DNA of 50,251 nt from Desulfococcaceae bacterium (GTDB taxonomy: Bacteria; Desulfobacterota; Desulfobacteria; Desulfobacterales; Desulfosalsimonadaceae): assembly GCA_030145385.1 (NCBI GenBank), contig JAQYVU010000022.1, positions 1 through 50,251 of the forward strand. The letters run 5' to 3'. Of this stretch, positions 6,203-29,731 are shown one piece after another (position 1 is the stretch's first letter; every line of letters starts with the position of its first letter). The translations under genes and the position numbers were made by a program. Under the pieces are notes generated by a model, which saw only the letters and a program-made list of their open reading frames with translations, did not search any database and was not told where the DNA came from.

Positions 6203-6724
6203 ATGTCTGCAAAAATACATAATTCAGCATTGCTTTTAGCTCTGGCGATATCATTGATTTATGCTGTGTGCTGGGTGGTTTTTTCATTTTTTTTTGATAA
6301 TATAATCCTGTTTTCGATGAATAATCAGGTACATCCCCATAGATTACAGGTTTTGACAGGATTTCTGTATTTGTCTGCCACCACGTTTCTGGTTTTTATT
6401 TTAATGAAGAACCAAGTACGTCAAGCTGTCATTCTTCAGTCTAAATTGGAAATCTCGGATGAGACTTTAGAAAGCCGGGTGAAGCTGCGCACCGCTGAAA
6501 TTGAAAAATCATTTGGATCGTTGAAAACATTAGAGGGAATTATTCCGATTTGCGCGAATTGCAAAGGCATCAGGAACGGATCGGGACAATGGGAAACAAT
6601 CGAGTCTTATATTCAGAAGCGTTCTGATGCGGAGTTTTCTCATGGTCTGTGTCCGGATTGTGATAAAGAACTGTATGGGGATAAACGGATGCTTTTTCAA
6701 ACGATTGCCAGCAAATATTCTTAA
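6203..6724 (+). CDS. Small membrane protein with C-terminal CxxC...CPxC domain
   Basis: The 173-residue protein has two hydrophobic helices (about 9-31 and 50-68), a charged, probably coiled segment (75-110) and a C-terminal Cys domain. That domain has PICANCKGIRNG (C117, C120), W130, IESYI, then FSHGLCPDC (C150, C153). The same domain often caps PAS, receiver or GGDEF proteins in deltaproteobacteria, where the four Cys suggest a zinc or redox site. Here it sits directly on a membrane anchor with no other signalling domain. A related protein is encoded at 28835-29731. A GGGGAG site precedes the ATG. The function is unknown; a membrane-bound sensor or scaffold is a guess. Confidence 0.8.
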   Translation: MSAKIHNSALLLALAISLIYAVCWVVFSFFFDNIILFSMNNQVHPHRLQVLTGFLYLSATTFLVFILMKNQVRQAVILQSKLEISDETLESRVKLRTAEIEKSFGSLKTLEGIIPICANCKGIRNGSGQWETIESYIQKRSDAEFSHGLCPDCDKELYGDKRMLFQTIASKYS

Positions 6725-22468: not shown

Positions 22469-23653
22469 ATGCGTTCTATTAAGGATCTGGATGTTTCAGG
22501 TAAAAAAGTGCTGGTGCGGGTGGACTTTAATGTACCCATGGATAAACATCAGAATATCACGGATGATACGCGAATCCGCTCTGTTTTATCAACACTTCGG
22601 TATGTTCTGGATAATAACGGCACCCTGATTATCATGTCCCATATGGGCCGGCCAAAAGGAAAAGTCGTGCCGGAACTGAGCCTGACACCGGTGGCAAAAC
22701 GTCTGGGAAGACTTCTTCAGCAGAACATCAAAATGGCGCCGGACTGTATCGGACCTGACGTAAAAAAAATGGTCGATGAAATGAATACCGGCGACATTCT
22801 GCTGCTTGAAAACTTAAGGTTTTATCCGGGAGAACAGGCCAATGATGAAGCGTTTGCCCGCGAACTCGCATCAATATGCGATATTTACATCAACAATGCG
22901 TTTGCGGTTTCCCACCGGGAGCACGCGTCTGTTGCTGCCATCACAAAATTTGCGCCTCAGTCGGCGGCCGGATTTCTGCTGATAAAGGAGCTGGATTATT
23001 TTCACGCGGCCATGGATAACCCCCGGCGTCCGCTGGTCGCGATTGTCGGCGGTGCAAAGGTTTCAAGCAAGCTGGGTGCGCTGAAAAACATGTTGGGCCG
23101 GGTGAACAAATTCATTATCGGCGGTGCCATGGCCAATACTTTTTTAAAAAGCCAGGGGTATAATCTTGGAAAATCCATGGTGGAAGAAGATCTGGTTGAA
23201 GAAGCCGGAGAAATCATGAAACGGGCCATCAGCGAGGGGATCAAGTTTTACTTGCCCGTGGACGCGGTAGTGGCCAGCGAGATTGATCCGGAGGCTGAGT
23301 CAAAGATTGTCCCCATCCAGGAAATTCCGGAGGACTGGATGGCCCTTGATATCGGTCCGGCCTCATCCCGGCTGTTTGCGGAAGTCTTAGATGATGCCAA
23401 AACCATTGTCTGGAACGGGCCCATGGGGATATTTGAAATGGATGCGTTCAGCCGGGGAACGGTTTCCATGGTCCACAGTGTTGCCAATTCCTATGCATTA
23501 ACCATTGTCGGGGGCGGTGATACGGATGTCGCGGTTCATTCAACCGGTCAGAGCGACCGGTTTTCGTATATTTCAACCGGCGGCGGCGCATTTCTATACC
23601 TGATGGAAGGCAAAATATTGCCGGGGGTTGCGGCATTGAACAATTTGAAATAG
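22469..23653 (+). CDS. pgk: Phosphoglycerate kinase
   Basis: The 394-residue glycolytic/gluconeogenic enzyme interconverts 1,3-bisphosphoglycerate and 3-phosphoglycerate with ADP/ATP. It has the N-terminal signature [12 protein letters not shown], then [19 protein letters not shown], and [12 protein letters not shown]. The glycine-rich nucleotide region follows: [21 protein letters not shown], and GGGDTDVAV. Length matches the family (about 390-400). An AAAGGAAG site precedes the ATG. The next gene starts on the base after the stop. Confidence 0.98.
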
Positions 23654-24340
23654 ATGACTTCCCTTGTCATCAAATATAAAATTCAGATTCTGCTGCTCGC
23701 ATGTGTGGTTCTGGCGTTTGTTATGTTCAGAAATCAGCTGGTTGACCTGTATTTTATTTTGACGGACAGGCAAGGCATCAAGGATTTTATTGAATCCTGC
23801 GGGGCAGGAGCGCCGTTTGTGTTTATGGGCTTTCAGGTGGTGCAGGTCATGTTTGCGCCGGTTCCGGGTGAAATCAGCGGTTTTGTAGGCGGCTATCTTT
23901 TTGGGACCACGCTCGGATTTATTTATTCAAGTATTGGCCTGGCCGCAGGTTCGGCTATTAACTTCTGGATTGGCCGGGTCCTGGGATACCGGTTTGTCCG
24001 CAGAGTGGTTCCAAAAGCGAAATTGGAAAAGTTTGACACGTTTATTTCGCATCAGGGTGTGATTGTTCTTTTGTCTTTGTTTATATTCCCCGGTTTCCCA
24101 AAGGATTATCTGTGTCTTTTTCTTGGGATCACAACTCTGCCGTTTAAAATTTTTATTCTTCTGGCAGGGTTTGGAAGGATGCCGGGAACGTTGATGCTTA
24201 GTCTGCAGGGGGAGTTTTTATTTGCCCAAAATTACAAGGTGCTCGGGGCAATCGGTTTGATCTGTCTGCTAATTGTCGGGCTTGCCATCCGATATCGAAA
24301 GGCTGTTTACGCCTGGGCGGAGCAAATTAATAGAAGATAG
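23654..24340 (+). CDS. TVP38/TMEM64 (VTT-domain) membrane protein
   Basis: The 228-residue inner-membrane protein has a first helix at 9-26, then the VTT/DedA-like core. FAPVPGEISGFVGGYLFG is followed by a glycine-rich helix (AAGSAINFWIGRVLGY), FPGFPKDYLCLFLGIT and a terminal helix near 195-212. VTT proteins are polytopic with re-entrant loops; some act in lipid flipping or membrane homeostasis. The ATG follows the pgk TAG with no gap, so it is translationally coupled to pgk. Confidence 0.88.
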   Translation: MTSLVIKYKIQILLLACVVLAFVMFRNQLVDLYFILTDRQGIKDFIESCGAGAPFVFMGFQVVQVMFAPVPGEISGFVGGYLFGTTLGFIYSSIGLAAGSAINFWIGRVLGYRFVRRVVPKAKLEKFDTFISHQGVIVLLSLFIFPGFPKDYLCLFLGITTLPFKIFILLAGFGRMPGTLMLSLQGEFLFAQNYKVLGAIGLICLLIVGLAIRYRKAVYAWAEQINRR

Positions 24341-28834: not shown

Positions 28835-29731
28835 ATGATCGACATAAAGACATTGATATTATCTATTATGCTTGTCAGTATATTTTTCTGCATCGCATTT
28901 TTTATATACAGTCTGGAGCAAAAAACCTACCGAGGATTTAGCTTATGGAGTTTTAGTACACTGATTATGGCATTGGGCTTTTTAGCGATAATTCTGCGTG
29001 GAACGATTCCGGTCGGATTAAGCGTTTTTGCTGTGAATGGCCTTTTTACCTTGGTTGCTGTGATCCGTCTGGATGCAATTAAACGCTTTCTGGTGGACAA
29101 AAGTCTAAATAAATTATTGTATACTATCCCGATCTTCGTTGCTCTTGCCAGCAGTATCTTCTATTTTGCCGTTGACCTGATTGAGATCCGAACTTTTATT
29201 GTAAGTGTTGCCCTTTTTATATTATCCGTTTTGATTTCATGGGATCTGATTCGGTATTCACCACTCGAAAATAGGCTGCTTTACTATTCGGCCGGCATTT
29301 TTATTGCGTTCCGGGGCTTAACAGTATTGGCTCGGGCCTTTTTATGGCAGGCTGATACCCAGCATAATATTTTTGATAACAGCATCTGGTCCTCAATCCA
29401 GTTAGAATTTGGCTTGATTAGCGAAATCGGGCAGAACGTAATTTTTTTAATGATGAACAGTAAACGGGCTGAGGCGAATTTTAACCAAGCCGAGTCAAAA
29501 CTAAATTCTACGGTTATTGATCTGAAAAAAGCGCTGTCAGAGGTTAAAAAACTTCAAGGTATTTTACCGATTTGTTGATACTGTAAGAAAATTCGGGACG
29601 ACCAGGGTGCCTGGCAAGGCATAGAAAAATACGTTCATGAACGTTCCGATGCTCAGTTCAGCCATGGGATCTGCCCTGAGTGTGCAAAAAAATATTATCC
29701 GGATATCGATATATACGGTGAAAGCGAATAA
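28835..29731 (+). CDS. Six-helix membrane protein with CxxC...CPxC domain, interrupted by in-frame TGA
   Basis: From ATG 28835 (AAAGGAG site just before), 247 codons encode about six membrane helices, then a coiled-coil linker (KRAEANFNQAESKLNS.., LKKALSEVKKLQ). The conserved domain begins GILPIC and meets TGA at 29576-29578. The same frame continues without a break to TAA at 29729-29731. It reads YCKKIRDDQGAW, IEKYVHERSD, FSHGICPECAKKYYP, which is the rest of the domain present intact at 6203-6724. With TGA read through, the product is 298 residues with C247, residue 248, C250, C280 and C283. At the TGA position the related protein has Ala, and Ser or Ala is usual in the family. Three readings are possible: selenocysteine, other readthrough, or a recent nonsense mutation (TCA to TGA needs one change). 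A CCAGG-GTG-CCTGG hairpin lies 23-36 nt after the TGA. Confidence 0.7.
29602..29614 (+). promoter_or_regulatory. SECIS-like hairpin downstream of in-frame TGA
   Basis: CCAGG (29602-29606) pairs with CCTGG (29610-29614) around the 3-nt loop GTG. The loop begins 29 nt after the TGA, and its first base is G. Published bacterial SECIS consensus rules ask for a stem of at least four pairs, a small loop with a G near its 5' side, and a loop 16-37 nt from UGA; this hairpin fits. The stem is short and lies in GC-rich coding sequence, so chance is a serious alternative. Confidence 0.35.

Follow-up and report, generated by a model that had tools for sequence, protein, structure and literature searches.

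Results

An in-frame TGA in a gene for a four-cysteine protein

The window analysed here is a stretch of 50,251 nucleotides from a draft genome of a Desulfococcaceae bacterium, on the forward strand of which an open reading frame of 247 codons (28835..29578, + strand) runs from an ATG at 28835 to a TGA at 29576..29578. Direct reading shows the ribosome-binding-like sequence AAAGGAG ahead of the ATG and, past the TGA at codon 248, a frame that reads YCKKIRDDQGAWQGIEKYVHERSDAQFSHGICPECAKKYYPD... and stays open for 50 further codons before closing at a TAA at 29729-29731 (29579..29731, + strand). The in-frame TGA, the 50-codon continuation and the clean TAA, from which the original prediction of either a new selenoprotein or a fresh nonsense mutation set out, are thus confirmed. 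Apart from the TGA, the 298 codons contain no further stop or frameshift. No in-frame ATG, GTG, TTG or CTG is found between the TGA and the TAA, so that the last part of the protein would scarcely be produced unless ribosomes moved through the TGA. Homology, and not chance, accounts for this open extension: its best match in another genome (E value 1.7e-28) shares 81% identity over 54 residues, and the conserved residues said to follow the TGA are indeed all in place.

A model of the full-length read-through product, of low confidence overall (mean pLDDT 63.8), presents six helices, one further, long helix and, at the C-terminus, a small domain. Six helices, which are probably membrane-spanning, and the long helix belong to the 247 residues that precede the TGA, and the gene product is sensor-like in this predicted arrangement of membrane region, coiled-coil-like linker and C-terminal four-cysteine domain. 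Modelled alone, the domain gives a better result than the full-length protein (pLDDT 85.9). Comparison of this domain model with solved structures by fold returned no match with an E value of 0.001 or lower, the best sequence-profile match in the PDB had an E value of 0.043, with no known fold assigned, and a search of PHROGs gave one weak match, a family of unknown function (E value 0.042).

A widespread domain with four invariant cysteines

The domain follows the motif C-x-x-C-K-x-I-R-D-D ... F-S-H-G-I-C-P-x-C, in which the CxxC...CxxC cysteines, Cys247, Cys250, Cys280 and Cys283, are invariant in alignments of 9 and 41 sequences. The TGA falls between Cys247 and Cys250, at a variable site of the domain, and the 50 codons beyond it supply the remainder of the C-terminal domain (CxxC...H..CPxC). 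The window copy has the same invariant cysteines as other copies of this signalling domain, from which it differs by its stop. Of 291 genomes of the class that were searched for the domain, 225 gave matches, with up to 23 copies in a single genome. In the ten domain proteins scanned for partner domains, out of twelve listed, five contain PAS folds (one of these together with a solute-binding domain), one contains Cache plus PAS, and one each contains CHASE, Cache, MASE3 and a receiver domain. Since it sits towards the C-terminus, the four-cysteine domain looks like an unnamed output module of signal transduction.

Searches against Pfam-A gave no match to the window protein up to an E value of 1 and none up to 0.01 for the related loci L101, L009, L132 and L002 or for the second copy in the window. 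NCBIfam matched neither the window protein nor L101, and L009 gave one match below cut-off (E value 0.16). None of five spellings of the motif turned up in the papers searched. A by-product of the analysis is a widespread four-cysteine signalling domain to which, among the proteins scanned, no Pfam or NCBIfam model was found to correspond.

Domain matches in the window lie at 29537-29698 and at 6440-6682. The second belongs to a gene at 6203-6724, coding for 173 residues, which carries the domain at its C-terminus and contains no stop within it. Eight copies were detected in the genome as a whole, and the seven other than that at codon 248 are all free of stops.

Residues aligned with codon 248

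The nearest full-length orthologue found (L101/L131, in a genome of the same order, G572) is 74% identical over residues 1-296 and carries a Ser at the TGA codon. More distant full-length relatives in Desulfuromusa kysingii (64% identity) and in genome G528 (43% identity) present a Met and a Ser respectively, so that none of the three aligns a Cys with the TGA. The Ser codon of L101 is one substitution from the TGA, which bears out the earlier remark that one base change would suffice to create the stop. Within the family of G572, two of 86 genomes contain a match at an E value of 1e-40 or better. No other genome of the same species appeared among the searches made, and no relatives were found in plasmid records or viral contigs. 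Synteny was considered as context and set aside, as in the 19.9 kb around L101 and the 6.9 kb around the D. kysingii gene nucleotide similarity does not extend beyond the gene.

Among 68 fetched copies of the domain, the window included, the residue at this position is Ser in 41, Ala in 16, Met in four, Thr in two, Cys in two, Phe in one and Val in one, with the TGA of the window as the remaining case. These counts rest on distinct fetched copies that fit one fixed motif expression; copies listed and not fetched are outside them, as are L009-L042 and L086-L090, which trace directly or indirectly to a search with a Cys at this site. When all loci are taken together, Cys occupies the position in 31 of 103 distinct stop-free copies, a sample biased by construction because it includes that search, whose query (C-C-x-C) returned many distant Cys copies. 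The earlier statement that homologues have Ser or Ala and not Cys therefore describes most copies but is too narrow, as Met, Thr, Val, Phe and occasionally Cys also occur.

Stops in other copies of the domain

A strict TGA-specific pattern, applied with no mismatches and apt to miss copies with a divergent motif, matched in one of 395 genomes of the phylum, namely the genome of the window. By hand count of the best 150 domain matches from the search of 291 class genomes, the window alone contains a stop, with none in the other 149 listed. A first search for relatives, in 60 genomes including the window's own, listed 150 matches in 41 genomes (hand count), nine of which were flagged for a stop. 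These nine comprise the window and eight fetched copies, seven of them with a stop at the terminal position and one with an internal TAG. Neither the strict pattern in the phylum genomes nor the other listed class matches thus provide a TGA in a homologue from another organism. Within the genomes searched, the features expected of a recent nonsense allele are seen: the nearest orthologue has a sense codon that a single substitution separates from the stop, and the stop is confined to this lineage.

The internal TAG was found in L084 (genome G040, contig C3, 5090-5305), in an otherwise homologous frame of the same domain. It is either a sporadic stop or, if the G040 genome uses it, a pyrrolysine codon; it is a second, independent stop in the domain family, and TAG is not a selenocysteine codon. 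Its presence indicates that a stop does appear sporadically among the many copies of this domain.

Constraint on the downstream frame

Comparison of the window with L101 gave an omega of 0.23 for the 247 codons that precede the TGA and of 0.12 for 48 codons beyond it. Changes polarised against D. kysingii over 40 downstream codons number eight at the nucleotide and none at the amino-acid level on the window lineage, and seven and three on that of L101, a rough comparison given the few sites and the saturation of synonymous sites to this outgroup. The region after the TGA has probably been constrained until recently, judging from these substitution patterns, and it follows that the stop would be young, an error or read through. 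Such constraint fits a young stop and fits equally a sequence error, readthrough or the insertion of selenocysteine.

Hairpins after the TGA

Limits published for bacterial SECIS elements comprise a loop of 3-9 nt, a stem of 4-16 bp, a G among the first two loop nucleotides, a UGA-to-loop distance of 16-37 nt and a minimum free energy (MFE) of -7.5 kcal/mol or lower (PMC13188914). The limits as worded there leave unspecified the stretch to which the MFE applies, and single unbroken stems were scored here. The hairpin CCAGG-GTG-CCTGG, put forward previously as lying within such rules, is present on the + strand at 29602..29614 (+24 to +36, one base off the claimed position, with 28 nt from TGA to loop), but it is not part of the minimum-energy fold and alone reaches -5.4 kcal/mol. 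The minimum-energy fold contains in its place a competitor, GTGCCT-GGCA-AGGCAT (29607..29622, + strand; +29 to +44), with 6 bp, the loop GGCA and 34 nt from TGA to loop, which at -7.7 kcal/mol falls just inside the published limits.

Values of this size are not rare. Among 3000 synonymous reshufflings of the same peptide, 3.4% reach -7.5 kcal/mol, 2.0% reach -7.7 and 15% reach -5.4; the value of -7.5 is also reached by 2.8% of 2584 background codons (every third codon of 12 open reading frames in the window) and by two of 103 homologous copies, a set in which Cys-biased loci are included and copies with a stop at the position are left out. The 50 nt after the TGA have an MFE of -10.4, with a z score of -0.96 and 34 of 200 shuffles as good. 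Selenocysteine sites of the same genome served as positive controls and gave hairpins of -9.7, -9.7 and -13.2 kcal/mol at 18 nt for the formate dehydrogenases and of -9.3 at 20 nt for SelD; the 50-nt MFE is -15.8, -21.2, -19.6 and -19.0 at these sites, compared with -10.4 at the window. The orthologue L101 has no qualifying hairpin, and the 3' arm of the alternative hairpin differs from the corresponding L101 sequence by three synonymous codon differences. In view of the chance rates, the shuffle z score and the stronger control sites, the hairpin is at best mild evidence for selenocysteine.

Selenocysteine machinery of the genome

The genome encodes selenoproteins. A tRNA-Sec (anticodon tca, 75 bits) and SelA (611 bits) are present, selD is split over contigs C68 and C112 and contains in its first part its own in-frame TGA followed by a strong hairpin, and three formate dehydrogenase alpha genes each have one TGA and a strong hairpin, a fourth above cut-off being without a TGA. 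SelB was the one component of the proposed check of sel genes that was not recovered: the draft, of 209 contigs, 97% complete and with 4.2% contamination, yielded no match above the TIGR00475 cut-off and none with PF09107, a model that does match in E. coli. As true selenoprotein genes are present, SelB is likely missing only from the draft assembly.

Discussion

The original prediction had named, as observations that would speak for a nonsense mutation or an artefact, orthologues with Ser or Ala, a TGA in this strain alone and a genome without sel genes. The first two are essentially what was found among the genomes searched, with one of the three full-length relatives carrying Met; sel genes are present, although SelB was not found. 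We consider it likely that a recent Ser-to-stop change truncates one of eight detected copies of an unnamed four-cysteine signalling domain. At a site of the domain that varies among copies, a Ser codon would recently have turned into TGA in this genome, and ribosomes would end there, leaving a 247-residue protein without the complete domain. This explanation takes Ser to be the ancestral residue, the stop to be real in the population and the TGA to act as a stop, each of which we infer.

Genes truncated by a single nonsense change are pseudogene-type alleles. The present gene resembles these in that one stop interrupts a homologous frame that is otherwise intact, in that the nearest orthologue found carries a sense codon and in being one of eight paralogous copies; it differs in that no decay has yet set in downstream and in that the first 247 residues could still be produced.

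Rather unlikely, in our estimation, is an assembly or base-call error in the draft, in which case the true codon would be an ordinary one and the gene intact. The state of the draft (209 contigs, 97% complete, 4.2% contamination), the lack, on the window lineage, of any polarised amino-acid change after the TGA and the distance of one substitution from the orthologue's codon would all agree with an error. It left no direct sign of itself, and no other stop or frameshift accompanies it in 298 codons. The possibility that most ribosomes terminate at the TGA while a few place a normal residue there and complete the protein, with the downstream frame kept under selection, would account for the conserved frame and its low omega, and it has been proposed that bacterial genes often have their in-frame stops read through (PMC7918605). 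We regard it as highly unlikely here, as no specific sequence sign was seen, the stop is common to none of the relatives examined and a young stop explains the same data.

A new selenoprotein, in which TGA 248 would encode selenocysteine and form C-U-Y-C in the four-cysteine domain under the direction of the hairpin at +29 to +44, appears very unlikely. The locus does resemble bacterial CxU, UxC and CU selenoproteins in its TGA beside cysteines, the selenocysteine genes of the genome (tRNA-Sec, SelA, the split SelD with its TGA and three TGA-containing formate dehydrogenase genes with strong hairpins) and the hairpin after the TGA, which at -7.7 kcal/mol and 34 nt meets the limits of PMC13188914; distant copies with Cys at the position and the constrained downstream frame would also agree with it. 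The differences are a position that is variable, close homologues that do not carry Cys, a marginal hairpin and no TGA homologue found elsewhere. The closest relatives present Ser, Met and Ser, Cys occurs in two of 68 fetched copies and no second TGA was found in 395 genomes. Rare selenoproteins evolved from Cys ancestors in most families having them, according to PMC1794560. The deep-Sep procedure keeps a candidate if it has a known selenocysteine homologue or at least two Cys homologues in the top ten (PMC12013277), a rule against which the residues of the three full-length relatives may be set. Uniqueness alone does not exclude selenocysteine, since three of the nine new families reported for deep-Sep are without a TGA homologue elsewhere (PMC12013277). 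Hairpins of -7.5 kcal/mol also arise in 3.4% of reshufflings, 2.8% of 2584 codons and two of 103 homologues, the true selenocysteine sites of the genome lie at -9.3 to -13.2 kcal/mol and 18-20 nt, and SelB was not found in the draft. Catalogues of 87 prokaryotic selenoprotein families (PMC9312934) and of 119 selenoprotein families (PMC13188914) show, among the entries compared by name and domain identifier, none recognisable as the four-cysteine domain, their 'hypothetical protein' entries not being comparable by sequence. Candidates from bSECISearch in a deltaproteobacterium, including a histidine kinase, are described as awaiting verification (PMC8318568).

A newborn selenoprotein would be a special case, in which Ser changed to TGA and the three synonymous differences completed a weak SECIS-like hairpin 34 nt downstream. 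We hold it to be highly unlikely; were it true, selenocysteine would have entered the protein with no preceding Cys in this lineage. With regard to the two readings offered at the outset, the residues of the orthologues and the uniqueness of the TGA among the genomes searched support the nonsense mutation or artefact and do not support the selenoprotein.

If the TGA is indeed a recent truncating stop, it illustrates how an ordinary stop in a genome with selenocysteine genes can imitate a new selenoprotein: cysteines lie next to it, the frame beyond it is intact and a hairpin falls just within published limits. The nearest orthologue, together with a count across paralogues, quickly separates a stop mutation from a selenoprotein.

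A second candidate for recoding in the window, an in-frame TAG at 23651-23653, was rejected. This codon is the end of a phosphoglycerate kinase gene, and the ATG of a VTT-domain gene follows directly in frame (23651-23656); the pair is two ordinary genes with no recoding.
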